Assembly: GCA_025602915.1 (NCBI GenBank)
Contig: JAHLJZ010000061.1
Span: 86,452-150,451, forward strand
DNA from: Paraphysoderma sedebokerense
Lineage: Eukaryota; Blastocladiomycota; Physodermatomycetes; Physodermatales; Physodermataceae
Reading direction: 5' to 3'
Length of the DNA stretch: 64,000 bases
The notes beneath the pieces were generated by a model. It was given only the letters and a program-made list of their open reading frames with translations. It ran no database searches and was not told the DNA's origin. The position numbers and the translations under genes are program-made. Positions 1-63,420 of the stretch are shown here, piece after piece (positions within the stretch are counted from its first letter, which is position 1; each line of letters begins with the position of its first letter).

Positions 1-1962
1 TTGTCTTTGGTCTCGATATAGAGGTTTCGAGATTTCAAATCTGCCAGAACTTTGATACGAGCATCGAAACGTTTCAAGCCCTAAAGTATTAACACATATT
101 TCGAAACAGAAACCCTGTCAGAAATTCTGGACAAAATAAACAGAAGTGAGCAAAGAATACAAACCTGATATACGCCACCATTTTCATTCACGGTACCATC
201 ATCATTGAAAATATTAATAAATTCCAAATTATGTCTCTTTCCAATGTCACAATCGTTGAAATCGTGAGCTGGTGTGATTTTAACAGCACCAGTACCAAAG
301 TTCATATCCACATAGTCATCACAGATAATCGGGATGCGACGTTGATTAAACGGATGAATTACATGTTTGCCATGTAAATGTGCATATCGTTGATCTTTTG
401 GATGAACCGCAACGGCAGTATCACCGAGCATAGTTTCAATACGAGTAGTAGCGACAACAATTTTTTCGTCTATCGGGATTTTGATATTAGAATTGTGAGC
501 TGATACGAGCATTTAAAAGAATTAAAAACAAAAATACATACCAGAATTTTCCACGGGGTATGCAAAACTGATCAGCACACCAAATTCGTATTTCTTGTTG
601 GGATCATGCCCAGGCACAGTCATTAATGTTCTGCCTTTCAATTCTTTGCTTTCAACCTCCAAATTACTCAGCGCTGTGTTCAGGTATGAGCACCAATTAA
701 CAAGTCGGTTGGCACGGTAAATAATTCCTTCGTCACGGAGAGTAACGAATGCTTCATTGACTGCTTTACTCAATTTCTAACATACACGTGAGATAATTGG
801 TGTCAGCTTTCTTTAGAACATAAAACTCAATTCGATCTGCAACACTTACAGGATCCATTGTGAAGCAAGCCTTTTCGAAGTCGCAACTAGCCCCCAATCG
901 TTTCAGCTGACCATAGATACGACCGCCGTACTGTTCTTTCCATGCCCACACTTGTTTCAAAAACTCCTCACGACCAAGATCGTGTCTTGTCATTTTCTTT
1001 TCTTTCCAAATTCGTTTTTCCACAACTGATTGCGTAGCGATACCAGCGTGATCGCAACCTGGGACGTAGAGTGTCGATTTTCCGTGCATTCTATGATATC
1101 GAGTCATGGCGTCCTGAATTGACACGGTCAGGGCATGCCCTCTACAGTTTGATTGACATGTAAGCACGCGGGGCAACGAAGTAACTTTATAGGAGTCTTC
1201 TCAAACTTACAAATGCAATGAACCTGATTCCATCACGAAAAACTAAGGTTATTCAGAGTTGACTACACGATTTGGAACAAAATCTAAAACGTACCAGTAA
1301 CATTAGGCGGTGGAATTGGAATCACATAAGTTCCTTCTTTCTTGGCCACTTTTTTTCCATTTGCATCAACATCAACTGCTGCCTTCATAAATCCTTTTTT
1401 CTCCCACCATGCCATCCACGATGACTCTACAACTTTAGGGTTATAACTTGATGACATGGCGGCTTTCATGTCCTTTTTTTCACCTAGCGGCACGACGGGT
1501 ATTTGTTGTTCTGGTTCTGGTGTAGAATTGGACGCTGACTTTGGTTTCTCTTTTTTTGATGGTGCTGGGGACGATGAACCTGAAGAAGGCGCAGAGGGTT
1601 TTTTGTTGGCCTGTACATTTAAGTTAAATCGCAATAACAGGTTAGCAAGATCATGAAGGATTAGACCAGAAGAACTTAATCGGACGATTTAATTAGATAT
1701 TAACCATAGCAGCTTGTTTAGCCAAAAACTTTTCCATCTTTGCCTTCTTTTTGGCTTCGTTCTTTGCAGCATTCTTGGAGAGAGCCTTTGGCGAACCATT
1801 CTCATTATCTCCAGAAGGAGCGGCCTGTTGTTCCTGCTCAGGCTTTTGAGGCAAATTCGAAGTATTCGGTTGTGATCCGGTCATTGCGTAATATGATTTA
1901 CTAACTGAGATACTGTTTATCCTCAACGGATACGATGGGTACTGATACTGTATTCGGGACAA
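1..1962 (-). CDS. VAS1: Valyl-tRNA synthetase, N-terminal part (truncated by window edge)
   Basis: Charges tRNA-Val with valine. Class I motifs are visible: the HIGH-type segment PPPNVTGSLHLGHAL, then [10 protein letters not shown], and editing-domain blocks [19 protein letters not shown] and [14 protein letters not shown]. Exons on the minus strand are 1705-1962, 1295-1610, 1211-1223, 850-1141, 542-776, 165-499 and 1-80. All junctions keep frame with GT-AG introns, the shortest being 42 nt (500-541). The 13-nt exon 1211-1223 encodes the centre of the HIGH motif. Two in-frame starts exist. ATG at 1962 gives about 26 residues rich in S/Y/R with no acidic residue, like a mitochondrial presequence; ATG at 1884 starts MTGSQPNTS. 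Yeast VAS1 makes mitochondrial and cytosolic forms from two such starts, and the same is inferred here. A lysine-rich N-terminal appendix follows. The KMSKS half lies outside the window. Confidence 0.95.
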
Positions 1963-2326
1963 GAGAAATTCCGTTTATTTATCGTGTCCATGGTGACTCA
2001 TCCACGTGACTGGAGGAATGTCCTCGGCACCGCAAGAGTCACCGATGTCCGATACCCATCAATAATAGAAGCAGTATTTCGAAATATAAACTAATAATAA
2101 ATCAGTTTGGCATAAACATTGGTTTGTGCGAAGTCAAGCTCTCCGGTAAATTATCTGCTATTCACGCCAATCGACGAATGGTCAGTTTTTCCGAAGTTAC
2201 AAAGGACCGAATGTTCAACTTTTAAGAGTTTTATTGTTGTTGGATGGATAACCACGGAAAAACCCAAACATATTTTCAACAAATTATCTTATTACACATG
2301 TATTTGTTTTGTTGCGGAAAACAAAT

Positions 2327-3166
2327 TTATTGGGCTCGGCCACGACCTAATCCTCTGAATTCGGGCCTATTTAAATTTGAAGAAAAATCAATCAATAAAT
2401 ACATATTCACAAATGGCTAGTCCTCTGGCACAGAAAGGGTACACTAGCAATAAAGAAATTGTAAGGGACTTACTTGAAATCACCAGAAGCACCTTCTTTC
2501 TTGGAATCATCACGACGACGGTAATCTTCACGGTCACCACGGGGAGCTCTGTACGGACGTTCTCCTTCTGTATAATAAAATATTACGAGAAAAAACGAGT
2601 TTAGTATATGTTGAATCGCCACGAGTTGACTCGAAAGAAGAGCATACCGGCACGGCCAGGTCGGATACCGGCGGGTCTGGCGGTCTTCTTGAATGTGGCG
2701 GGAACGATTTCAGCGGGTAAGTGCAAGTATTCTCTCAAGTATTCAATACCACTATCGGTAAGATAGTAGTAGAAGTATTGCCAAGAGAATTGAGTTTTAA
2801 CGTAACCACGGGAATCGAGGGACTGAAGAGCTTTGATGACTTGGAGGTTAGGAACATCAAGATCTTGATGTTTGGGGGCGTTGAAGTCTTTCTTGGCTAC
2901 AAGAACTCCCTCTATTATGTGACAAATAGAAAATTAAATTTAGGTCAGCTGGAATGTATCGGACGCCGTGTCCCTAGCAAATCCTCTATTTAACATAATT
3001 TCCGGTCTCTAAAAATTATTCCTTTTCTCAATCTTCCAGCCTTTCATTTTATCTTTTACTTTATTTTCATCCTCCGTCATCAAGAAAATGTATCGGACAG
3101 CCATAAAAACTCACCTTTGAAGAGGTATTCGTAGATGGCTTTTCTGTTTGCTTTAGGGATAAGCAT
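2327..3166 (-). CDS. RPS10: 40S ribosomal protein eS10
   Basis: Small-subunit ribosomal protein eS10 (RPS10), 149 residues, the normal size. Four coding exons on the minus strand (3115-3166, 2648-2911, 2474-2567, 2327-2366) sum to 450 nt in frame. The protein begins [16 protein letters not shown], has the winged-helix core ([36 protein letters not shown]), then the basic tail with [19 protein letters not shown], and ends [13 protein letters not shown] 3166 was chosen because it matches the universal N-terminus; the open frame upstream is probably 5'UTR intron. A good donor (AAAG|GTATG) near 3600 and an acceptor-like TAG just upstream of the start suggest a leader intron of about 430 nt. Confidence 0.97.
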
Positions 3167-3600
3167 GATTGGATCTACTATGTATAAATTCGGATTGATT
3201 GCAGTTGCGAAGATATGGGGAATTAAGTGGGATTCGGATTCAAAGAGCAAAGCGTAATCAAATGAAAACAAATAAAAACAAAAAAGGTCAGTCTGCGTCC
3301 GTTACACGATCAACACCTTAACAACATTCCCGACAAATTTCGACAACAATGTAGAAAAGCCAATTCGATCTTCCATCATGAAATTTCATTTTAATTCTCA
3401 TATGAACGAAAGTCTGCTCCGTATCAATACCGTCCCTCATCCTAGAGTTTTTCCTTTTGAACACCAATCACCATCCGACTCCTTACTGCAGCCAAGATCC
3501 GACATTAAAACTATCCATCCATCCCATCGCACCACCGTTATCACAGATTTTCTACCCTTAAAGTCTCTAAATGCGCATAAAATGGACAGAAACATACCTT

Positions 3601-26767: not shown

Positions 26768-28452
26768 ATGGCCACAGCGGTATCTTTTCCGTCCTTCGAG
26801 GATTCTTTCGGGACTCAGCAGACTTCGCAAAAACGACGACCTAACTCAAAGCGGAAACGAGGTTCAAATGGTTCCATGGATATGGGTATGAACGGGGGAA
26901 TGCAGCTTGTTAATCTAAACATGGTTCATGGTCATGGCAATAACGCAGGAGATATTGGAAAATCTAGAGTAGAAGAACTGGAAGACATGATCAGGCTGCA
27001 TTTGGGCACTGGAAAATTTTTCATCGTTGGTAAGTTTCTTTCCCTTTCTTCGAAAAAGAATACCTTTTGTACCTCTTTCTTCTTAGGGGAGTACTGATTA
27101 TGAGGGTGGAAAAAATGGTGTCTATGTCATGGTGCGACATTCAGCGCAAGTCCCTCGTCGTCTCCCCTTCGCGAGAATTATCTTTCTTTCTCGGATTCTC
27201 TCTCTGTACAAAATTTTCGTGGAAAAGTCACTAAATTCTCTGCCTTTACTATCAAAATTTACTTTGTGCATTTGCATTCATCCCGCCCCTGTCGCCATTC
27301 TATCGACCGCCGACCGTTTTGGGTTTCTTCCGACTTCATAGCTGCGGCATTGCGAGAGATCGATGAAGACAAATTATACGAACCGTCGACAAAATCAATC
27401 TATTCTTATGCAAAAGCAAAGTTTCAGTTTTCGAGGCGAACGACAAACACATATCTATGTTCAGCGTCCGTTTACGAATCGATAGTCGAAGACTACGGCC
27501 TCCCCATTCCTTGTTCCATCTCCCATATCCGATCACTACACAAATTTTCAGAGGACACGAGAAGACATATCTGGAAACTGATATGCAATTCAGGAACCAA
27601 TATCACCGAAGAAACAGTAATGAGTATGATACTGAAATTTGAAACCGGTGTCTCCTTCACCGATCTCGGTAATGAACTATACGTTCCAAAGTTGGTTATA
27701 GATGCTGCTAAAAAAGTCATTGGGAAATGTCAATTTGATTTGGATCCTGCTTCATGTGCTTTTGCCAATTCAGTTCACGCTAGTAACCTGTCGAATATGA
27801 ACCGATCTATGTCGTCTGCGACGCAGTTAATTGCCACCACTTTCTTTGACGAATCGATGAACGGACTCCATCAGAAATGGTGGGGTGATGTTTGGATGTT
27901 TCCGCCATTTGGTAGTGACGGTGATGGAACAGTAAGGCAACGAGCGTGGTTCGAGACAGCCGAAAACAAATTCAGGGACGGCGAAATCAATAGCTGCCTT
28001 GCGTTACTTAAAGTCACCAGTTCGTCATCATCCTCATCATCCTCCACTACACATCCTAATATGCAAAGCAACGTCGGAATGGGAATGAATAATATAAATA
28101 AAATAAACGCGACAATTGGCAATAACTCAAATGGCGGAAATAATACCTGGATGAAGTATCCTTGGTGTATGCTAAATTGCAAGTTAGATTTTCTTACTCC
28201 GACAGGGAAAGAAAAGAATGTCAACGATGAAAGTTATGTTGTGGTGTATCTGTAAGTTTTGCTAATTTCTTCGCACTTGTGAACTTTTCCTGTTCTGCTT
28301 AAATTTGCAATCTTCCTTACTGTTAACTAATGACATCTTGTACTTCACACATCAACAGTGGCCATAATCCAGACTCCTTCTGTCGCGAATTTTCCAAAAT
28401 TGGATTCATTCCTGGTTACAACTCCTGGTCCGGTCATACATATTCTCATTAA
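26768..28452 (+). CDS. Phage/ParB-like N-terminal region fused to a degenerate Dam-type adenine methyltransferase domain
   Basis: Three exons (26768-27029, 27342-28251, 28359-28452) sum to 1266 nt, 421 residues. Residues ~1-75 are low complexity with a basic cluster KRRPNSKRKRG (possible nuclear signal). Residues ~80-190 (GKFFIVGAALREIDEDKLY, then SYAKAKFQFSRRTTNTYL and DTRRHIWKLICNSG) follow the pattern of bacterial/phage N-terminal domains of the 'GraLREIrd.rLY...YCrerwGfsRsraYqli' type. Residues ~220-415 resemble phage Dam-type N6-adenine methyltransferases: VPKLVIDAAKKVIGKCQFDL, DPASCAFAN, WWGDVWMFPPFG, LDFLTPTGK, VVVYLGHNPDSF. Motif IV reads FPPF rather than (N/D)PPY, so activity is doubtful. 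A poly-serine/asparagine insert lies between the blocks. Identification is by pattern, not search; origin by ancient transfer is inference. Confidence 0.6.
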
Positions 28453-29620
28453 GCGACATCGATAATCACCCTGTCCTATTTTGCCATCAGCGTTTGTTAG
28501 GTTATAGATTACAAGTTGCCTTTTGGAGTTGGTAGATTAGAATATATGTAAAGCGTTTTGAACAACTTGTATTTATATCTATTGAAATTGCCGATTCTCT
28601 ATTCATTTGCTTTTAGTCGTCTTTATTCTTTCGTTTTCGAATTCAATTCGCGTTCTCTTAATACATTCAATCGCAGGAGAAACCTTAAACTTTAATTTAT
28701 TTTTTAAATTTATCTTCAACTATCTCTTTCTTTCTCTCTTCTTGAACTAAATTTTTTTGTATGATAATATTGAAGGAAGAGAGAGTGAGAAATTAAACCT
28801 GAAAACAGAACGAATGAGTAAACTTGGCAGATTTTTGAGTGTCCCTAATGATGTTAGTACGACGATATTTTTTACATGCAGTGCTGACTCTTGAGTGTAG
28901 AATCTACAGTACTGGTCCTCCCTATTTTGAGATAATTTGTTGAAAACAATACAGAAGATCGTGAAACGCTTTTCTGCCGATTCTAGGTGGTGCGATTGGA
29001 GTTTTAGATCTAGAACGTGATTGTGAATACCGTCTTCGCTCTCGGTAGTTGGAAACAAGGGTAATATTCATTAGAAAGGGGCCAAACAAATTGTAGAATA
29101 AAGATCCACCCGTAATCTAACTTGCTTAATAATTAATCTGATTTTACGATTTTCAAAGAGAGCGTATAGCCAAATCCTTATTAGTTGTGAATTCCCAACT
29201 GCTTTCGACCAACGCGATAAATAAATGGATGCTGAGTGTAGGCATTTATCGGCCATGTTGTCGATTGGCATGCATCGCAGATTCTATTAATATGGAGTTT
29301 AGATAAACACTCTGTGCCCTGTGGAGTGTGGCACATGAAGAAGTCTCGAACGCATTTCCCACACTCGAGTCTCGATCGTGCTAGTCTGCTGGAAATGTTC
29401 TCGATTCAATCCTTTATTAATGTTCGCCGTTTTTTCACTGTTTTTTCACCTAATTTCCAATATGCAGATATTTGAGCTCCGACCTGTGACTTGAGAGTGA
29501 CTTGAGTCTTCTGGTCTCTTCGAGTCCCACTGTCTGGCTCCCGAACCGCGCCTGAGGCAAGCATTTTTAGCGTCTAGAATGGCCGAGACGGGTACAGAAG
29601 TATTGTGTACTGATCGCGGA
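28453..29620. other. Gene-poor spacer
   Basis: AT-rich DNA after the methyltransferase-like gene. Minus-strand open frames at 28747-29058 and 29071-29271 are short and without family resemblance. Nothing else is recognised. Confidence 0.4.
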
Positions 29621-29756
29621 CCATGCCCTTGAATTCAGATTGGCGAAGGAATACATAATTTATAATTACAGAATACAAACTATTTATGTTAAGGAGTACT
29701 ACATACAATTAAAATGTCACGTGGTAATAACCATTGGCAAATCATGCCCTCCTTAT

Positions 29757-30480
29757 GTCTTCCCTCCTCAGCTGAGTTTGCAGTTGGCATTCACTCCTCC
29801 TACCGTCTACATTCTACCATACAAGCGCAGTACACTAGAATTGAGCGAACAGAAGGGATCCTGTTTTTGTTAATCGGTATGGCTGACTCCTAAATCCAGA
29901 ACGTTGAATACCTTACTTACCAGACTTTTCGATTCCATCGATCAACGCTGTAAATCTCTGAAAGGAACGGTTCAATCCATACAAGAAGAAATCAATGATA
30001 ATGCTAAAAAAATAAACAACAAGATCGACGTGATTCAAGCGGAGCTCAAGAGGGATGTTGGGAATGTATATGAGCTCCAGTGGGGCCCTCAATTGCCAGG
30101 TACTGCCAGCAATTCATAACCTTTGTAAGTTTGTGCGTAGGCGATTGTTAAAGGTCGGCTCTTCTGGCGGCTTCCGAATTTAATGTCTTCCTTCAACGAT
30201 ACTGACAGGGAAGATGTCCTCACTGTGCAAGACGAGCATTCAAAAACACTAATAACATCAAAGTACGTTTGAATTCTTTTTTGCTCCGTCATGCATATAG
30301 ATTTCTGGTAACGATGGCTTTTCTAGGATGGCAATTTGATGGATAAACTGAAAGACTAGGCCACGAGCTACAATCGAAATCGAGGGATGGCCAAAATGAA
30401 GGCGGAAGACTCAAATGTTAGATACAAAAAGTTTTTCGAACTCATCAAGGATGCAAATTGTCTGATGATCAGTATAGGTA
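29757..30480 (+). pseudogene. Dead copy of the multicopy family whose intact member is at 61782
   Basis: Shares the conserved 5' flank (29757-29850, CTGAGTTTGC then a CTACCGTCTACATTCTAC-type stretch) and the start GGTATGGCTGACTCC at 29877-29890. ATG 29879 is followed by a stop codon at 29891-29893. Later segments still match the intact gene: the coiled-coil exon (CTCAAGAGGGATGTTGG region ~30047), GAAGATGTCCTCACTG (~30201), the donor region AAAGTACGTTTG, and exon 2 GATGGCAATTTGATGGATAAA with an in-frame stop after CTGAAAGAC. Beyond 30480 only the shared 3' flank remains; the nuclease-like C-terminal exons are missing. Confidence 0.75.
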
Positions 30481-32243
30481 ACTAAGTCCGGAATAATACG
30501 CGTTCTTCAAAAAGGCGATCCTACGAACATACGAACATGTTGTGAAAAAGAAAAGCTAGAATATAGTCGCATCATCAAGGGATTAAACGGGATGCAATTA
30601 TCCATAATATAAGTAGATAAGAACTGAATCTGAACCCACATTGTAACGATTCTTCATCCTCCGTCTCTACTTCGATACTTATCGACGCATTTTATCACTT
30701 GTTTCACGGTACGAAGAAGTTCTTTTGTGTGTATACTCACTTCATTACTATTGCGATTGATAGAAACGGCTGTAGTAATGCCACTTCAACAAATGCGTCT
30801 GGTTATGTTACATCAACGATAACAAATCTGTAGAACTTCCGCTTTATTCTTCATTACTACTCTTTTGGCTTCTTCTGGAGACAGGACAAGCAAATCCGAA
30901 TCTTGAATACATATCTTGGAATTGAAAAACGGCATTTTAAAATTGATTATCGTAAGTTTTTTCCTTTCAATGCTGCTGTATCTGAACTAATATGACGAAG
31001 AGTCAGTGAAAGGATACCAAATATATGGTCTGCAAGGGGACTAAGAAAGGTCCGACGGAAATCTAGTCTTCCTCTGCGTCGAAACACGGACTTCTTTTAA
31101 TCTGGTTCGACTAAAACCTAAGTCGATTCAACAGAGAGTAGGCCAGAGTCGCGACTTTCCTCACGGATTCGAAATATCAACTTCAGGAAGTCGGTTTCCT
31201 ATTAAATAGGTGCGAGTGATATCAGAGTACCAAAAATATTAGGAAGAATTGAAAGAATCACAATAGTCGAATCCATGGACGGCTTGAGCAAAAGTCGAGT
31301 ACTGGTTTAAATTTTTAATTAATCACTCAAGGACACGATTGACGCTTGAAGTTACGTCAGGGGTGTGAGTGTGACCCTCTCATGTTTACCCAATTTGGTA
31401 GAAGTATTTTTTTTGTTCAATTGGACCAAGCCTTTATCTTCCCTGATGCTCCTCATATTGGGACAATCTGGTTTTCAGCTTGTACATGACCACAATCGTC
31501 GGACCTCTTACAATCTTCCAATGTCGATGGTATTTTAAGATTCCTCTACCGAGATTGTCCTCTTTGGATAATTACTTGCCACGTTCATGATATTGTCGAC
31601 GGGAGTAGATTTCTTTTTTATTCTAACGCTTACTTAACGTCTTGTTTCAAATTGTTTCAAACACGACTGACATTAAAGGCGGATCTGGAAACCAAGACAA
31701 CTTAGAATCTGAACAGCGAACAGGAAAAACAAGCTATTAAGTTGGAGGATATGTTGTCAAAGAAGATATCTTGAAGAATATAGGAATCAAGGGAATCAAT
31801 ATGCATTGGTTTAAGGCGTCGAAATATCTGGTAAAGCGATTTAGAAGATACTGTAACACATTTCGCGTATGATAATAGATGTGATTGCGTTCGCCTTATA
31901 TAATCTACTAGACAAAACGCATTAGATTCTGGATAAGGAGGTGATGAACGAGCTCTTTCTCCGGCCCCAAAATTTGGAGTACTCATTAAATGGAAGGGTT
32001 CGCTTCGCTGGTTCATTGATCAGGAGGTGAACATATAGCCTTACGACGAATACGTCAGACCTCGTAACTGAAGAGGGAGCCGCAGAATTTGTAAATGATT
32101 TTACACTGTATAATGAAATTATAAAGAATTATATTTTTAGTAAGGTTGAAGATATTCCAATCTTAGAAAGTCCGACATCCGCGACGGGTGACACCGAAAA
32201 TTTACATCAAGAGATAATAATTACAAGGGATTTAAATCAAATA
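30481..32243. other. Degenerate spacer; 30481-30840 matches the 3' flank of the multicopy family
   Basis: The first ~360 bp (GTAACTAAGTCCGGAATAAT, then CATCGACGCATTTTATCA and GCGTCTGGTTATGTTACA) recur at 63080-63420 after the intact copy. The remaining 1.4 kb has scattered stops in all frames and no gene I can support. Confidence 0.55.
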
Positions 32244-33300
32244 TTACATGTTCAAGCTGTGTTTTCGGTGTATAAATGTATCATTTTTCGGTTGCTGAAT
32301 AGGGTTACTATTTCTTGTGGGTTGAGGCTTCGGATTAGAGAACCGATAATGGCCATCTGCAACTTGAAACAAGGTGGTGACAGGAGGCAGTTTCGGTTTG
32401 TCGAGAATTTTAGGTTGTGAATCGTTTGAATAAAAAGTATTGTAAGGGTTTATTGGCGATTGAAGCTTATCTAAGTCTTTGTAAAAGTTAGAAAGTGATC
32501 TGATTATGCCGAACTCTCGGGAAGTCGTAATGAACACGAATAAGATTGTACCTTGTCGCTCCGATGACGTACTACTGTCGTCCGGATTATCTCGTGATGT
32601 AAGTTCAAGAGGTCTGTTATGTCTTAGTCTAGAGTAATAATCGGTCGGTATGTGGACCAGATTGTGAGGCGGAAGAGGCAATTTCCCATCACTGATGTCT
32701 TTTGGGGTGTAGTATGAAGCCAAGTGAAATCGACGTTTATCTGCCGTCACAACTGATAATACTTTCTTGTGTAGCAGTTCTGAGAAAGGTATAAATTCTT
32801 CGGCATTATCGTCTTCTTTTTGAACATATGCGACAAAGTCACCAAAGTCCTTTGAGGAAGACCATCCTGCAAAAAGCGTGTCAGTGAATGAGGTTCGCCC
32901 ATTTAATATTAATATCAATGACAATTCGTACTCAAGCCATCAGTCCACCTTATTATACCAGCTTCTTCCTCATCCCAGACAAAAATTGCACCTGGAGAAG
33001 TTCTCGTTAATATAAAACGCCTATTTGCCGTTGGGTAATTAAAGTTATGAGCCCGAATACCTGATTTTATAGAGCGTCTATCAGTTTCCCTTAGTCTTCG
33101 TTTGATGCGAGGCAACACCCCCTGCCTTGCAGCTTTGTAGTAGGAGTGATTAGTGAAAGCAGTCGTTAAAAACCCGTTGAGGAAATCGTTGATGAATGAG
33201 TTCACCAATGCATGCAGGAGAAAAGAGATATCACCATACCTTCAATTAAAATTAGAGCTTGCCATATAGAGTTCACATAGCCAAAAAATGTTTCTTTCAT
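32244..33300 (-). CDS. WOPR (Gti1/Pac2/Wor1-type) transcription factor
   Basis: Four exons (33240-33300, 33061-33132, 32932-32991, 32244-32866) sum to 816 nt, 271 residues. The WOPR DNA-binding fold is recognisable: ETFFGYVNSIWQALILIEAA, RQGVLPRIKRRLRETDRRSI, KSGAIFVWDEEEAGIIRWTD, GLRWSSSKDFGDFVAY, and the second half KKVLSVVTADKRRFHLASYY, then TPKDISDGKLPLP. Known members (Candida Wor1, Histoplasma Ryp1, Gti1, Pac2) are master regulators of morphological switching. The C-terminal ~110 residues are P/N/S-rich, as usual. The second intron (32992-33060, 69 nt) is a multiple of three without stop codons. The start ATG 33300 places the domain at the extreme N-terminus, as in relatives. Confidence 0.85.
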
Positions 33301-36300: not shown

Positions 36301-37204
36301 TGTCGAGGAGATGATTAAAGGAAAGCGGCTCTCCATTTCGAGTTCGATTGTATTATATGTATTTACTCAGTCTGTATTTTGGTAGACTGTAAATTACAAT
36401 CGTCGAAGATGGATAGTAGATAATATTTTCAGGTGAACTTAAGAGAGGTTTTCTATAATCCGTTGCATCCAGGAAGCTTAAATATCTGTCCATCTTCAAG
36501 AGGGTTCCGTTTCGATTCAGTCGTTCTCCATTTTGTCCTAGGTCGATGTAATTCTCAACACCGTCGCATATTCAGCATCTCAAATCCGTTGATACACTAG
36601 CGCCACTTTTCACTCTCCTCTCCATCCATCTTTCGCCATCTGAAGAAGTTGACTCAGAAGCGAAAGAATTGGTCATTTTCACGCGTGTCAAGGCTTGACG
36701 GTGGAGAATTCAGAAGAACTATCCCTCTACATAGGTGGCTTGATTGGTTTATCTAAACCCGCTGCGTTCAGCAATCCATGAAAGAGCTATTTGATGAGAC
36801 TACACTTCAATATCTGGAAGTCTGGTCAAACCCAAATTCAGAACAGTATTCGCGAAGTAAACGGCAATTGGTATTATTCCGTAAGTGCAAATTGACTTAA
36901 CCCGCAACACTTACCTCGGCTTTCTTGTCAACCTCTTGCGCAGTGAGACAGCATATAGGAAGTTACTTCCCCTCAAAGCCGACACAGTGCTAATCCTCAA
37001 ATTTCTCCCAGTTCTCAGAATTGCTGGAACTTAAATCAGCGAGAAATTGACAAATCTTGCAGCATTGCTGCGAAAGCTCACAAAACAGGGAAATTCAAAA
37101 TACATCTGTGATTTTCTACCTCGTCCATCCATTTTCATATCCCCATATCAACATCAAATTGTAAACGTAAAACTGATCGTTTATCGCATTGCGAAGTAGT
37201 CATT
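33301..37204. other. 3.9-kb gene-poor region
   Basis: Frames are broken throughout. The longest open frames (34640-34942 minus, 34671-34934 plus, 35036-35425 plus) overlap each other or lack any motif. It may hold decayed mobile DNA, but I find no transposase, reverse transcriptase or clear terminal repeats. The last ~100 bp is the promoter side of the next peroxin. Confidence 0.45.
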
Positions 37205-38782
37205 ATGTCATCGTTTAACCTTCCCAGCATGCCACAGCTCCCAAATCTTGAATTCTCGACATTAACTCGTTCACAAGTCTCTATTCATCTTTTGAACAAA
37301 CTTGTTCTTCAACTTCATCGTGCGCTCACGTGGGAGGACATCTCTGCATCATTGCTACTCTGTCTATCATGGATCTTGGTTTGCCTATATATTAGAGAAA
37401 TGTTTATGTTTTTACCCCATGCGATGATGTTGGGCTTAATGGCTGGGATAAAGTATTGCAAAGACAATGCAGACGTGAGGAGTAGGGTAGTAGAAGTGGG
37501 TAAGTTTAGCGGAATCTTGATTTGCATTGATTCTTTATACTGTGTCAAAGAATTAATTTTATTGTCTGATCCTTTAGTACAGGAAATATTATTACCAGAA
37601 TTCCCGGGTTTGATGACTACAGTGAACGACGCCCAGTCACTAGTGACCTATTCCACGACCCGAACACTTCGTCTCCGACATTGGTTGGCTGTGCATGTAT
37701 CGAAAATCGACTGGTCAAATTACGAGGAAACGCTGCGGATCTATATGATTGTCGCCGCGACATATCCTGCTTGGTTATTGATCAATCATATTGTTCCTGG
37801 AAATTACATCATTATGTTCATTGGATTGACCATTTTGTGCTGGAAGAGCCCCATTACTGAACTGATTCTGGACATATTAGAGAAGGAAGTACCACGAGGC
37901 TTGAAAATGATGGAAGGCAATATGAATAGGTGGGCAGACTTTGCCAGAGACCAGAAAAAGAGAATGTTGAATCGGTGGAATAGGTCGATAGAGATAGTGA
38001 GGTCGTCGAGGAGAAAAGTTGTCGACTTTGTGGATTCGGCGGTTTCTAGTGAATCAGAGATGTCCGACTACTCCGACAGTCGTCCCACAAATTTTCGGTC
38101 GAGCATATATAGTATCAAGAAGAGAAGAGGAACGAAAGGGTCACAGAAAGGGGAGAACAAAGTGACACAAAAACGGTACAAAGTCGATGAAGTGGTTTCG
38201 AAAATTGAGTTGTCTACCTTCGAATTTCAACGGTACAGATTTGCGATCGGCTGGTCGCCATTAGTGAATACGGGCGAATATGCCTGGTGCGACGAAACTT
38301 CCCAGGGAATGTTGACGAAAGAAACGATCGAAAATATCATCCCAATGCATGATGAAGAGAAAATGGAACATAGTAGGGGAGGAAGCGATCTGTTTTTAAA
38401 CTTAAAGCAATTGCACGACGAATCGGCCACAATTGGAGGAACGGACTCTTTCAAAAAACTGGTTACAGACAATGCCAGTTTAGTTGGTTTAGATTTAGAG
38501 AAAAGCGGGAATAAGTTTAAATGGGTATTTGAGAGTGAGTGGGATATTGAACGACCTGCTGTGGATGAATGTAAGACACAGGAGAATGGGTATTTGTCTA
38601 ATCGCTGGGATCGTGTCTCTATGCGAGATGTGGAGGGTTCGGTGGACCATCGTGACGAGGACGGTTGGGAATATGCTTGTGACACTGACAGATCGGAGAG
38701 GGACTGGGGAAAGAGTGGCTATAGAAGTAGTGTCAGGAGGCGGAAGTGGAAAAGGGTCGCGACATTGATAGTGGTTGAATGA
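37205..38782 (+). CDS. Pex30-type peroxin with DysF domain
   Basis: Single exon, 525 residues. The N-terminal half is reticulon-like membrane: SASLLLCLSWILVCLYIREM, FLPHAMMLGLMAGIKY, IYMIVAATYPAWLLINHIV and YIIMFIGLTILCWKSP. A basic linker follows, then the DysF module: STFEFQRYRFAIGWSPLVNT, GEYAWCDE, FKWVFESEWDIERP, DEDGWEYACD and the closing RRRKWKRVATLIVVE. Family members sit in ER/peroxisome contact regions and regulate peroxisome number. The aromatic/arginine C-terminal signature is typical of DysF-C. It is paralogous to the minus-strand gene at 40933-43159. An intronless structure is unusual in this window. Confidence 0.88.
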   Translation: MSSFNLPSMPQLPNLEFSTLTRSQVSIHLLNKLVLQLHRALTWEDISASLLLCLSWILVCLYIREMFMFLPHAMMLGLMAGIKYCKDNADVRSRVVEVGKFSGILICIDSLYCVKELILLSDPLVQEILLPEFPGLMTTVNDAQSLVTYSTTRTLRLRHWLAVHVSKIDWSNYEETLRIYMIVAATYPAWLLINHIVPGNYIIMFIGLTILCWKSPITELILDILEKEVPRGLKMMEGNMNRWADFARDQKKRMLNRWNRSIEIVRSSRRKVVDFVDSAVSSESEMSDYSDSRPTNFRSSIYSIKKRRGTKGSQKGENKVTQKRYKVDEVVSKIELSTFEFQRYRFAIGWSPLVNTGEYAWCDETSQGMLTKETIENIIPMHDEEKMEHSRGGSDLFLNLKQLHDESATIGGTDSFKKLVTDNASLVGLDLEKSGNKFKWVFESEWDIERPAVDECKTQENGYLSNRWDRVSMRDVEGSVDHRDEDGWEYACDTDRSERDWGKSGYRSSVRRRKWKRVATLIVVE

Positions 38783-40932: not shown

Positions 40933-43159
40933 TCAGTTTACGGCAACCAATTTTACAGTCCTCGTCCATTTTCGTCTTCTTAGCATTGTTTTTCGCGTCT
41001 TTGATCCCCACTTCAATTGAGTTGCATCATAGTACTGCCATCCATCTTTAACTTTAAATTGACCTGTACAAGACGAATGAGATTTCCAAACAGAACCCAA
41101 TGGATCAACATATCCCGTTAGAACATTAAAATTTCCATGACATTGACTAGGCTTGACATCTGAATCCAGTTCGATTGTCCAATTGCCTTCAAATTCCCAC
41201 CTAGATAACGTTGAATTTGCACAATCAAATTGAATACTCCGATGAATATTTTGGTGCAGAAACTTCAGCGGTTTCAATACTTCACTTTCTTCGTCTTCGC
41301 TTCGATTCGCAGTTGTCAGTGCACTCAAGTCAAGAACACCATCCACAACCAAAGAATCGAGTGTCTCTCGTGTTAAACTCCGGCCAATTTCATCACCCCA
41401 TACAACCTCGCCTGTGTTCATCAATGTACTCCAACCGACTGTAAATCTGTATCTCTGATACTCGTACGTGTGAAGATTAAAAGAAAGAATAGTTTTTACC
41501 GAGGATAATGCATGATTAGCATCCAGGAAAGATGTATCCGCGACGCGACAGGTTAGTTTCTCAATCTCTGGAATGTCTGTTATGTCCTGCCGATCTGTTG
41601 ATTTGACGAAAGGTACATCGTCATGGACAGCTTCAGATAAATCAGCAGAAGAATCGAAGGTGTCATGATTGCGAAGGATGATCCGATTAAATAGCGAGAC
41701 AGTCTGTATGAACAAAGGGCTACCGCGGAGCGAATGCGACGTTGATAGTGAAAGTGGTTGATTAGACAAATCTACCTGATATTGCTGCGCAAAACCTGAA
41801 AATCGATCAAGTATGGTGTTGCGAAGGGCGGAGGCGCAATTGATTTTCGCGAGGGAATTGATTTCATCCTGAACACATCGAATACAGTCGCCATTGCTAC
41901 TACTGCACATATTATGTGGTTTCTCTGCATACTTGACTGAACCTAGTAAGCATGGTCTCAGCCTTAACAGCGGCGAAAACATGGCGTATGGAAGGAAAAA
42001 ATTCAAAATGACAAAAGGAAATTGATTAACGGAAAAAGGATTTAGTTTGTCAACTAATGGAAACGAGAAGGTCCTCTCTATATCTAGGTTAATGTCAAAA
42101 GGTAGCTCATTAATATGCGGAACAACTAGTTCAGCTCGCTGAAGTACATCCAAGTAACCGGATTTAGATTCGTCAAATCCAATATTTCGTGGAGATCTGC
42201 TGAAGTCCGAGTGACCAGCCTTTTCTGTTTGATCAGTGCCTCTTGGAAATAAGCGTGATTGAATTTCATCCGGAAGTTTGGCACTCCTCATATCATCTGT
42301 ATTTTGAGCGCATTGTGTCGACGTAAGAAGTGGCGAGGTTGAGCAGCAGGTTGTATCTCGATATTGATCGGAAGTTGCCAGCGTTTGAGAGCTCTTTGAG
42401 GTTAGTAATGTTCCTGGAATATTTTCGGACGAGATTTTAATGCATCGAATCTCTTCTTCTTTAGATATTGTCGATAGTGTTGATTCAACTTCACACCGCC
42501 GAGCTGTATCACCCCCAACACGAGCTGTTGACTCTATCAAACTAGTTGTCTGCAGATCAGAAGGACCACCTTTTGGAGAAGCGATTTCTACTCAGAACTC
42601 AGATTAGGAACCAAAAATTTAATATGTAGCAAAGTTGCTGTCTTTAATCACCTTGGGATTCATTCCCACTCACCGATGGGCAACAGCACAATATCATTAA
42701 CCCTAAGACTGATGTCACGAAGGTTGGTTGTGACGAGTTGTGTCCAAGCATACATTGACTGCTTAATATTGCCCCAAGTATGAGGATTCGAATGCTTTTA
42801 TAATTTTTCTGGTTGTAAAAATGCTTAGCTGCAGCTAACAAAGTAAGATACATGGTTAATGATATTCGTTCTGATGTCGTGATGGGAAAATCTGTATTGA
42901 AAATCATACCGTCATTCGTTTTCTGATTGTGAAGTTCAACTGGGGAAACTATTGTATAGAGTCTAACAAAAGCAAACACTAATAGTAGAGATATATGGAA
43001 ATAGACAGGTCTGGCATTTCGGCAACCAAATACCCAAGCAATGCATAGCAAAGTGGAAAATTTGGCAGATTTCCATTGCAGTAAATCAATGAATATTTGA
43101 ATTAGGGTGGCAAGAATAGTTAACCGGACCGCCGATGAATTTCCTTGCTGCAACAGCAT
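40933..43159 (-). CDS. Pex30-type peroxin with DysF domain, long paralogue
   Basis: Two exons (42652-43159, 40933-42587) sum to 2163 nt, 720 residues. The N-terminal ~165 residues hold several membrane segments (LTILATLIQIFIDLL, FHISLLLVFAFVRLYTIV, ISLTMYLTLLAAA, VLGLMILCCCP). A long polar insert of ~350 residues without recognisable domain follows. The DysF module is at the C-terminus: HTYEYQRYRFTVGWSTLMNT, GEVVWGDE, WEFEGNWTIELDSD, VKDGWQYYDATQLKWG and RRRKWTRTVKLVAVN. The closing signature is nearly identical in layout to the gene at 37205. It is tail-to-tail with PPP4R2, 278 bp apart. Confidence 0.85.
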
Positions 43160-59700: not shown

Positions 59701-59710
59701 CGCCTCCCCT

Positions 59711-60560
59711 TATCTACTTCCTCATCAGCTCAGTTTGCTGTTCGCATTCACCTCTCCCACCGTCTACACTCTACTGCACTAGCGCCGTACACTTGGATTG
59801 ATGGAATTGTCAGAGTTCCGTCTTTGTGGAGACCTTATTCACCAAACATGCTGCTAAACTCGATTCCATCGATGACCGATGTGAATCGCTGGGAGGAATT
59901 GTTCAATCCATCCAAGAGCTAATCAATGACAATGCTAAAAAGTTCGAAAAAGTTCGCAAGGAGTGGTACCCATACTTTCTCGCAATTGAGAGTCGCACAG
60001 CAACCTCATACACATTTCCGATATCACTCTTGACCTCCTTGCGAACCTCCTCGACCTGGGTGTAAAGTTTTTGAGAATTGTCAGTTTGTCATTGATTTGT
60101 TTTTAAATGAATTGAACAGTTCCTTGATCCTTCCAGCGATTTACATCGTTCATCGACGGAATCGACTTTAGCAGCATGTTTAGTGCATAAGGTTTCCAGT
60201 GTGATCAGGATTTCCGAATCAGCAAATGGTGACGATGTTCTCACTGTGGAACTACGACGAGCATTCAAAATTACCAATAGCAATAAAAGTAAGTTTGAAT
60301 GCCTTTTTGCTCCGCATTCATATAGGTCTCTGGTTGAGACGGCATTCCTAAATCTTAGGATGGCAACTTGAATCCTTGATGGATAATCTGAAGGACTAGG
60401 CCAAGAGCTTCAATCAGGATATGGCCAGACCCAAGGCGAGACTCAAATTTTTCATACAAGGACGTCCGAAGAACTCACCCAAGGATGCAAATTGTACGAT
60501 AGTCAGTATAGGTAATCAAGTCTGGAATAATACCTTTCTATATGAACATATTTTGCAAAA
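59711..60560 (+). pseudogene. Broken family copy with an internal inverted duplication
   Basis: Begins with the shared 5' flank (CTCAGTTTGC, CCGTCTACACTCTACTG). The ATGGCTGAC start region is missing; sequence resumes in the coiled-coil exon (59829-59966, GAGACCTTATTCACCAAACA). It then runs into an inverted copy of the same exon (59967-60199), after which forward sequence returns with GACGATGTTCTCACTGTGG (60229) and exon 2 (ATGGCAACTTGAATCC, ~60359). It ends at the 3' flank GTCAGTATAGGTAATCAAG (~60500). No full-length product is possible. Confidence 0.8.
59829..60199. repeat. Foldback of family exon 1 (copy b)
   Basis: Arms 59829-59966 and ~60033-60199 are reverse complements with roughly 80% identity by eye, for example AACATGCTGCTAAACTCGAT against the complement of ATCGACTTTAGCAGCATGTT. 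The loop is ~66 nt. Transcription across it would give a hairpin containing family exon 1. Confidence 0.85.
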
Positions 60561-60728
60561 GGAGAGCTTGTTTATAGTTGTATCATCAAGGGTTCAAATT
60601 ATATGCAAATATCAATTAAGAAGACGGTGTAGAACTAAATCTAAACCCACATTGTAACTGATTTTACTAGGTTTTACCTTACGTGACCTTATTATGAATC
60701 TAAAATCCATCGACACACAATGCCTCCC

Positions 60729-61175
60729 CTCATCTCTTTCCCCCCTCGGCTCAGTTTGCACTTTGCAATTCCCATTCACCTCCCCTACAGTCTACATTCT
60801 ACCGTAGAAACACTGTACCCTTGCATCGATCAAACAGTTAGAGTTCCGTCTTTGTTGATCGGCATGGCTGATTCCAAAATGCAGGGAATATTCCAAACCT
60901 TATGCGAAAATGTGGCCTGCTTCGACAAACTTGCCTGTAAACTCGATTCCATCGATCAACGCTGTAAATAGATGGAATAAACTGTTGAATTCATCCAAGA
61001 ACAAATTAATGACAAAGTCGTACAGCCCACGACTCAAGGGCAATATCGGAAATGTGCATGAAGCTTGTGCGACCCCCAATTGCAAAAAGATCTGGATCCC
61101 GCTCATACACGTTTCCGATGTCGCTCTTGAGTCTTGGCCTCCTCGACTTTGTCATTAATTTGTTCTTGGATGACA
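60729..61175 (+). pseudogene. Broken family copy with a second internal foldback
   Basis: Shares ~135 bp of 5' flank and the start GGCATGGCTGATTCC with the intact gene. ATG 60864 opens a frame that ends at TAG 60969-60971. Coiled-coil exon sequence continues (ATCCAAGAACAAATTAATGA, GCAATATCGGAAATGTG) and is then inverted from about 61100 to 61173. The downstream exons are gone. Confidence 0.8.
60991..61173. repeat. Foldback of family exon 1 (copy c)
   Basis: Arms 60991-61064 and ~61100-61173 are inverted copies: TCATCCAAGAACAAATTAAT against its complement at 61154-61173. Identity is near 85-90% by eye over ~74 bp, with a ~35-nt loop. Confidence 0.88.
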
Positions 61176-61781
61176 ATTATACAAGCAAGAATTACTTGTT
61201 GAAACCACAGGATTCACCGATTGTTTTTACAGGCTTTTTATACGATGGAGTATCTAATACAGTTAGCTAATGAGAAACTATTATTGCATCATATCAATAT
61301 AATAAATTCCGAATGTCTTAAACTTTTCTTCACTATGTTCGCCTGATTCCTTACACTAGCAGGAAAACCAAGTCATTCAGGCGAAGGATATGTTGTGAAA
61401 GAAGCTATTATACAATATAAAAGAAACTGGAATCAAGGGAATAAGTAAGCATTGGATTAGGGAGTCAGAATAGCTCGTTCGGCTATTTGATGAATATATT
61501 AACGACATATATATACTATGTTAGACATATAAACACGATATAAATTTTGCGCTTTCCAGAGGTGGTCACGTCTGGTCACGTTTGGACACCTCTTGTCACG
61601 CCTTCAACACGTGACGTTATTATGAATCTTCAATCCATCGACACCCCCCTCGTCTCTTCCCTCCTCGGCTCAGTTTGCACTTTGCAATTCCCATCACCTC
61701 CCCTACAGTCTACATTCTATCGTAGAAACACTGTACACTTGGATCGATCGAACTTTTAGAGTTGTGTCTTTGATAATCGGC

Positions 61782-62995
61782 ATGGCTGACTCCCAAATGC
61801 AGGAAACAATGGAAACTTTATGCGAAAATGTGGCCTTCTTGATAGAGACCTTGGACAAACGCTTTAAATCGATGGGAGAAACTGTTCAGTCCATGGACGG
61901 ACGCTTTAAAGCGGAAGGAACTTTTCAATCCAGCCAAGAACAGATCGATACCTTTACTCAAAACATTTGTAACAATCTCGAGGAGGTTCGCAAGGAGCTC
62001 AAAAGCGAAATCCGGAATCTGTATAAAGCTGTTGTGCGGCCCTCAATTGCAGAGAAATATGGATTGCGCTATGCGGAATCACTCTGCTTGGAAGACTGCT
62101 ATGGTCTGGCACGTCTGGTTGCACCGACATCACAAACTTCCCTAGAAGAGACAGAAGCTGACGATGTCCTGACTGGGCACCAACAGCGAGCGTTCAAAAT
62201 TGCTAATCGCGTGAAAGTAAGTTTGAATATTTTGCTCCAACATTCAATTAGAACTCTTGTTAACATGACTCTTTTAGGATGGCAACTTAATAAATAAATT
62301 GAAAGATAAGGTCGACAGCTACAATCGAGAGATGGCCAAATTGAAGGAGAGTGACCCAACAATTACATACAACGAGTATTTCAAACTCACCAAGGATGCT
62401 GAGAAATTAATTGCAGAATGGGAGACCGGCAAAGGTAACTTCGTAGGACTTTGTGAAGTCTAAAGTAAGGTCATTAATCAAAAATAATTACTATTAATAG
62501 ATATTAGATGGCTGGCCACCAGTGATCTTTTAATTATGGCCATCACGGCTCATTTTTCGGATCAGGAAAAGATTATCGAGTACAAGGAGGTTCGTATCTG
62601 ACTAAAATGAATTCTAGATATGAAATCTTTTCAAAAACTGACCAACATGATTGTTTTCATAGCCACCATTTTATAGCAGACTGGATATCGATGTCCGCGG
62701 CAAGGTCAGCACGACGGTTGATGGTGACAAAAAGATATATGTTCATTTGGAACTAGGAGAAGTCAGAAGCTCTAATTCAAACGATGAGATAAGACATGGC
62801 TATCGTCAGTTGGCGATTACCTTGCGCTGCATTGAGTATGCATGCAAGGCTATATTTGGTGATAACGGCTGTTGTGCCTTCCGTGGTCGTCTCTTCGTAC
62901 CAAAGAAAACCAGCGAATGCATTCTCAAGGAAGAGTGGATTGAAGATATCATCAAAGAATCAAAGTACTCCTTGGACTTTGAGGCTGCGCAGTGA
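61782..62995 (+). CDS. Intact member of a lineage-specific multicopy family (coiled coil plus nuclease-like C-terminus)
   Basis: Exons 61782-62216, 62278-62434, 62501-62589 and 62663-62995 sum to 1014 nt, 337 residues. Start MADSQMQETMETLCENVAF. Residues ~1-90 are a coiled coil with repeats of the kind DKRFKSMGETVQSMDGRFK. The middle is helical (KLKDKVDSYNREMAKLKES). The C-terminal ~110 residues (RLDIDVRGKVSTT, VHLELGEVRSS, YRQLAITLRCIEY, FRGRLFVPKK) show the D...ExK-like spacing and flanking pattern of PD-(D/E)XK nuclease folds, but with R for K in the ExK position. The fold call is inference. Three broken copies (29.9, 59.8, 60.8 kb) share its flanks. Confidence 0.7.
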
Positions 62996-63069
62996 GTCGA
63001 TGGTTAATTGGTGATATTACATGTCGGATGATTGATGTGGTTTGGGTGTTGGGAGGTGTACAAATTGTA

Positions 63070-63420
63070 CGGTGGTCAGTATAGGTAACTGAGTCCGGAA
63101 TAATATTTTACTTTCTTTAAAACGGCGGTCTTTTTACATATACCGAAAAAGGAGAATTTGACTATATAATTGTATCATGAAGGGTTTAAACGGATGTAAA
63201 TATCCATACGATAGGTAGATAGTGTAGAACTAAATCTAAACCCACACTGTAACGGATCGTCACTCATCTTTACTTAGTTAATCATCGACGCATTGTATCA
63301 TTTGTGTCACAATACAATGTAACTTCTTTTTATATCCACTTAACTATTGTTGAGATTGATGTAAACGCCTGTAGCAATCCTAATCCAACAAATGCGTCTG
63401 GTTAGGTTACATCAACCATG
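63070..63420 (+). repeat. 3' flank repeat of the multicopy family
   Basis: Matches the sequence after the dead copy at 30470-30840: GTCAGTATAGGTAACTGAGT, CATCGACGCATTGTATCA and GCGTCTGGTTAGGTTACATC. The order is the same in both places, so the flank moved or was duplicated together with the gene. Confidence 0.75.

Follow-up and report, generated by a model that had tools for sequence, protein, structure and literature searches.

The closest described relatives of the gene analyzed here are Dam proteins (PF05869 / PHROG_111), the DNA N6-adenine methyltransferases of phages and plasmids. The gene lies at 26768..28452 (+) of a 64,000-nucleotide stretch of contig JAHLJZ010000061.1 (hereafter the window) from Paraphysoderma sedebokerense (Blastocladiomycota), and belongs to a fungal family that shares with Dam a common fold, the S-adenosylmethionine (SAM)-site segments E-x-Y-T-P and DxDPxS...AN, and the W-x-G frame before motif IV together with the PP of that motif. 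In contrast to Dam, the family has a different N-terminal domain and a nuclear gene with introns, the N of motif IV is replaced in 29/29 members, a Y or F stands at position 4 in 2, and the NN(A/C)TET segment is replaced. A second point of comparison is the bacterial ParB-Dam fusions (P0056-P0058 and L101), in which a partition-type N-terminal part likewise precedes a Dam domain; these proteins keep NPPY, and their N-terminal parts, labelled ParB-like by eye (P0056 also by its source name), showed no kinship with the fungal N-domain when profiles were compared. PMC5512222 also mentions a ParB-methylase of Bacillus cereus. An unnamed domain of plasmid proteins from cyanobacteria and Spirosoma (L005-L013, L016) is a profile-level homologue of the fungal N-domain, but a Dam domain was present in 0/10 of the proteins fetched, one of which (L009) is a fusion with a cytosine C5 methylase.

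Two systems offer looser parallels. METTL14 is an inactive partner in MT-A70 complexes, and Mta9 is named as another (PMC13297926). These partners are, as proposed for the fungal protein, dead methyltransferases kept in a DNA/RNA-acting context, but they belong to another methyltransferase family, and no active partner is known for the fungal family. MetB (PF02384) of early-diverging fungi, reported in Paraphysoderma (PMC11258239), is likewise a captured bacterial N6-methylase gene, but of a different (type I/IIL-like) family and reported as a writer of asymmetric N6-methyladenine (6mA) in Mucor. Against this background we favour, with moderate confidence, the reading that the window gene encodes a captured and domesticated DNA-binding pseudo-methyltransferase of zoosporic fungi, built from a plasmid-type helical domain and a dead Dam domain. 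It would appear to show cleanly how a eukaryotic lineage has retained a prokaryotic DNA-modification enzyme whose catalytic motif was lost, a change seen throughout the family when it is set beside its prokaryotic relatives, which retain NPPY. The literature searched, of limited coverage and available in part, held no description of this fungal family, which does not prove priority.

A fungal family with an altered Dam motif

A protein search with the 421-aa product (E <= 1e-3) returned 24 proteins besides its own entry, the best from Spizellomyces (8e-107). The matches comprised chytrid relatives from Spizellomyces, Powellomyces, Batrachochytrium, Rhizophlyctis, Geranomyces, Cladochytrium and others, together with several unnamed proteins (38-51% identity) and a single Dam-type protein of prokaryotic origin (P0025); identity of the fungal relatives to the window protein was 38-53%. 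A profile search listed 58 proteins. Of these, 27 belong to the fungal family, including five that the protein search had not returned, and the other 31 are Dam-type proteins that fall outside the family, 30 of them with a precomputed PF05869 label; P0018 and P0020, found in the protein search, were absent from this list. A search with the N-domain of one chytrid member retrieved nothing outside the family and added one entry (P0061); it thus revealed no fungal paralogue that has just the N-domain. The family totals 30 entries, with two each from B. salamandrivorans and Rhizophlyctis rosea. Three names were confirmed as Chytridiomycota by taxonomy, the remaining named genera we take to be chytrids, and similarity is the basis on which we count unnamed entries as fungal. 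No further blastoclads turned up in these searches, none of which was aimed at blastoclads. As judged by sequence comparison, the kinship of the gene to its fungal relatives is far beyond chance. The family has no annotation, and apart from Paraphysoderma all of its named members found are chytrids.

When 13 prokaryotic rows were included in the tree, a branch with support of 99/98 set the 26 fungal rows apart from them. The placement of Paraphysoderma was weak in the trees, and a clade of the other fungal rows that excludes it was not rejected (p-AU 0.175); vertical descent and chytrid-to-blastoclad transfer are therefore both compatible with the data.

The sequence-only reading of the locus had proposed FPPF in place of (N/D)PPY as motif IV. 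This was borne out at residues 274-277 (27899..27910, +), where prokaryotic relatives have NPPY, and the change proved to be family-wide. We counted motif IV over 61 proteins, 31 prokaryotic and 30 from the fungal family, one of the latter being a fragment that left 29 scored. The prokaryotic proteins had NPPY (30/31) or NPPG (1/31). The fungal proteins had SPPL (9), SPPV (3), SPPS (3), SPPG (2), SPPI (2), SPPQ (2) and the singletons SPPA, SPPH, SPPY, FPPF, FPPT, FPPG, APPE and HPPN. Position 1 was N or D in none of the 29 and the PP was kept in all, while position 4 was Y, F or W in only two (SPPY in Chytridium and FPPF in Paraphysoderma). Position 4 held 12 residue types over the 26 aligned fungal rows; its column (277) had an entropy of 3.18 bits, the tenth most variable of 166 domain columns (27 fungal rows, of which 26 cover this position). 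These counts make FPPF one outcome of a family-wide change in the catalytic motif rather than an oddity of a single gene. In amino-methyltransferases, the N/D and the aromatic residue of motif IV hold the target base, and on this basis the motif change suggests that the family is catalytically inactive. The prokaryotic NN(A/C)TET segment, at and past the end of strand 305-312, was also replaced in the fungal family.

The SAM site presented the opposite picture. E199 and Y201 in ELYVPKLVIDAAKKV (27674..27718, +), and D222, P223 and N230 in FDLDPASCAFAN (27734..27769, +), were each present in 27/27 fungal and 13/13 prokaryotic rows; we take these segments to be motif-X-like and motif-I-like, respectively. 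Their retention would allow the family to bind SAM or S-adenosylhomocysteine (SAH).

Assignment of residues 196-410 (27665..28416, +, interrupted by intron 2) to a Dam-type, PF05869-like domain was examined by several routes. The domain matched PHROG_111 (E 8.6e-8) and aligned with prokaryotic Dam at 99.7% in hhalign, and its predicted fold was that of active amino-methyltransferases. Three fungal-family members bear a precomputed PF05869 label. Two observations weigh against Dam membership: the window protein itself had no PF05869 match, leaving the assignment to PHROG_111, profile-profile comparison and relatives, and the Powellomyces member scored 26.1 bits against PF05869, under the 28.1 cut-off. 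Pfam and NCBIfam scans of the window protein gave nothing useful, including no match to PF05063 (MT-A70) or PF02384 (MetB / N6_Mtase), and its FPPF differs from DPPW. A sequence search of the PDB yielded nothing meaningful, and Foldseek alone found no PDB match at E <= 0.001. Thus the Dam-type core proposed earlier held at the profile level but not by PF05869, and residues 220-415 were not placed in another fold, profile comparison giving Dam for approximately 196-410.

The helical N-terminal domain and the origin of the fusion

Residues ~58-190 (26939..27649, +, interrupted by intron 1) form a predicted all-helical domain, preceded by residues 1-56, for which pLDDT is <50 and neither strand nor helix is predicted. 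The domain aligned with its unnamed counterpart on cyanobacterial and Spirosoma plasmids at 98.2% in hhalign (E 3e-14, 104 columns), and tblastn matched it to plasmid proteins at E 3e-5 and 5e-8. The fold predicted for it may be akin to that of Spo0J/ParB in complex with parS. In contrast, comparison with the four ParB-Dam proteins gave 0.5% in hhalign, hence no profile kinship, and a Pfam scan of the window protein found no ParB match and no N-terminal ParB nuclease/CTPase domain. A tblastn search against phages gave three matches (best E 4), none significant. The earlier description of a ParB-like, phage/plasmid-type N-terminal region therefore stands for plasmid homology and possibly for a ParB/Spo0J-like fold, but not for ParB sequence kinship or, in the tblastn search, for phages. 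The predicted structure of one plasmid domain (L017) had a pLDDT of 43 and was set aside.

Within this domain, FSRRTTNTYLCSAS (residues 117-130; 27428..27469, +) is a putative recognition-helix segment that may contact DNA. RRxTNTY was present in 24/30 fungal-family sequences. In five of the six exceptions this stretch is missing (they are fragments, or gene models that omit it), and the sixth, the second B. salamandrivorans model (P0016), has other letters at this position. Mean column entropy was lower in the N-domain than in the methylase domain (0.91 vs 1.48 bits). A rate contrast between the two domains was considered and dropped because their tree lengths were alike (18.18 for 25 rows and 18.46 for 26 rows, respectively).

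Both domains are widespread in prokaryotes, and among named eukaryotes the searches made found them only in these fungi, from which we infer transfer from prokaryotes to fungi. A search for the N-domain and Dam in one prokaryotic protein covered 292 genomes of the cyanobacterial phylum, within the limits of sampling and first-look filters; matches at E <= 1e-5 occurred in three of them, and no match covered both domains. Among open reading frames (ORFs) of 106 loci, both domains occurred only in the window's own protein. As these limited searches found no prokaryotic protein with both, the two domains may already have been joined on a plasmid or phage not yet sampled and been acquired together, or they may have been fused within the fungus. 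A search of viral contigs for the fungal family gave 28 pattern matches and 0 relatives.

The plasmid loci provided further observations that draw attention to the unnamed domain, which adjoins parA once and is fused to a cytosine methylase once. On a Gloeothece plasmid (L009, 1891-3828), a C5-cytosine methylase is followed by this domain, which thus travels with different methylases. On a Spirosoma plasmid (L005, 2063-3633), a protein with the domain lies directly after parA and is possibly an unrecognised ParB substitute. Separately, a Calothrix plasmid (L104, 1145-3562) has an 805-aa open frame with an internal Dam domain, where the annotated coding sequence (CDS; 1739-3562) is called a C5-cytosine methylase.

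Proposed role and competing explanations

The protein is probably a nuclear regulator. Its basic cluster KRRPNSKRKR (residues 22-31; 26831..26860, +) is a possible nuclear-type signal; the cluster predicted earlier is thus present, and it may direct nuclear import. Basic runs occurred in the N-terminal parts of 20/29 fungal-family sequences, several of the remainder being fragments, and C-terminal tails of >60 residues in 14/29 entries; the window protein has no such tail. Both features may be of the kind common among nuclear regulators. Under the proposed mechanism, a bacterial plasmid-type helical domain and a Dam-type adenine methyltransferase would have become a conserved nuclear-genome protein of zoosporic fungi, with methylation chemistry lost or strongly altered and the fold and SAM-site residues kept. 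The basic N-terminal tail would direct nuclear import, the helical domain would grip a specific DNA site through the nearly invariant RRxTNTY segment, and the dead Dam domain would either contribute further contacts (with DNA, within a dimer or with a partner) or sense SAM/SAH. The outcome would be a DNA-bound regulator or scaffold, by analogy with the inactive partner in MT-A70 complexes. The earlier idea of a domesticated Dam-type protein that could be a reader, regulator or inactive relic is supported in part. We only tentatively entertain the more specific possibility of a lineage-specific, SAM-responsive and site-specific chromatin or transcription regulator that combines a DNA grip of the plasmid-maintenance type with a dead, SAM-holding Dam domain and recognises the same DNA target in Chytridiomycota and in Paraphysoderma.

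Other explanations were weighed against the same evidence. That the invariant SAM-site residues, alongside a drifting chemistry site, mark SAM/SAH sensing as the main job, with the dead domain reporting the SAM level to a DNA-bound regulator, e.g. in zoospore-sporangium transitions, we regard as unlikely, as conservation of these residues may serve the fold only. The same residues, the predicted fold of active amino-methyltransferases, the PP kept in every scored member, and SPPY in Chytridium and FPPF in Paraphysoderma could instead indicate a methyltransferase still active on adenine or N4-cytosine, in DNA or RNA, with an unusual SPPx/FPPx motif. The absence of N/D at position 1, the variability of position 4 and the replaced NN(A/C)TET segment argue against such activity and make it distinctly improbable.

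A methyltransferase of DIRS-type retrotransposons, and not a gene of a plasmid or phage, might be the source; this view draws on the PF05869 domain of DIRS elements, which are present in the blastoclad Allomyces but reported to be absent from Batrachochytrium and Spizellomyces (PMC3783388). The N-terminal domain matches plasmid proteins, and we hold a DIRS source to be very unlikely. A PF05869 search of the P. sedebokerense genome found nothing and says little on DIRS elements, because it missed the window gene as well. Finally, the inserts at residues ~236-250 and ~313-356, found in the window row alone of alignment A1, and the long end branch of Paraphysoderma (0.61 and 0.85 in two trees) might suit a decaying relic without function, at least in this species. 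We give this scarcely any credence, given an intact frame and splice sites and relatives at 38-53% identity with invariant residues.

The pseudo-methyltransferase reading carries a caution for studies of 6mA: fungal 'Dam' matches should not be counted as 6mA writers, as three members are labelled PF05869. The writers named are MT-A70 complexes and MetB (PMC12695648, PMC11258239, PMC13297926). Chytrids and blastoclads mostly have <0.3% 6mA, with >1% in Powellomyces hirtus and Fimicolochytrium jonesii (PMC11258239). These two species also carry the family, with SPPL and SPPV as motif IV, so its presence does not simply track the 6mA level. In P. sedebokerense, an MT-A70 locus was found on C37, away from the window gene, and PF02384 loci on C12 and C38; an AMT1-type gene was not seen in a six-frame search, which is weak for split genes. 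The C37 locus (L002), the sole MT-A70 locus found in the genome, is METTL4-like by eye (DPPWENASASRSGAYS). Genetic transformation and published 6mA data for Spizellomyces punctatus (PMC12695648) make the role of the family testable.

Gene structure and neighbourhood

The gene consists of three exons and two introns, with the CDS at join(26768..27029, 27342..28251, 28359..28452). Its product was 100% identical to the NCBI hypothetical protein BKA69DRAFT_1090297 (P0001). The intron-containing gene recognised from sequence thus matched the NCBI model exactly, but two introns were found where three had been claimed, and the true splice phase gives FFIVAAALREI instead of FFxVGxALREI. Exon 1 (26768..27029, +) opens with the ATG and ends one base into codon 88; exon 2 (27342..28251, +) lies in an open frame at 27104..28255; exon 3 (28359..28452, +) includes the stop codon. 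Intron 1 (27030..27341, +; 312 nt, phase 1) and intron 2 (28252..28358, +; 107 nt, GTAAGT..CAACAG) are both GT..AG with GTAAGT donors. Of the two inserts, that at residues ~313-356 (28016..28147, +) is of low complexity and follows strand 305-312, where relatives have VDxGxxWFxR. An unspliced intron was considered here and rejected, as no GTAAGT donor was seen and the NCBI model retains the insert. A protein search of the 27.3 Mb genome found a single locus for the gene.

The window has 26 ORFs of at least 150 aa, the gene's own included, and ten others were scanned against Pfam. The scan identified DUF4042 and a weak HEAT match upstream, two weak Pex24p matches downstream and one zinc-finger, with five ORFs having no match. 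None of these ten was phage-like, in agreement with the sequence-only reading, and none had a reverse transcriptase, RNase H or tyrosine recombinase. The Pex24p matches (E 9e-6 and 2.7e-5, both below the Pfam cut-off) belong to two opposed ORFs at 37112-38779 (+) and 40936-42591 (-). Eight partial, diverged matches (68-74% identity) to the region 29600-33300, downstream of the gene, cluster at 59708-63419, at the opposite end of the window.
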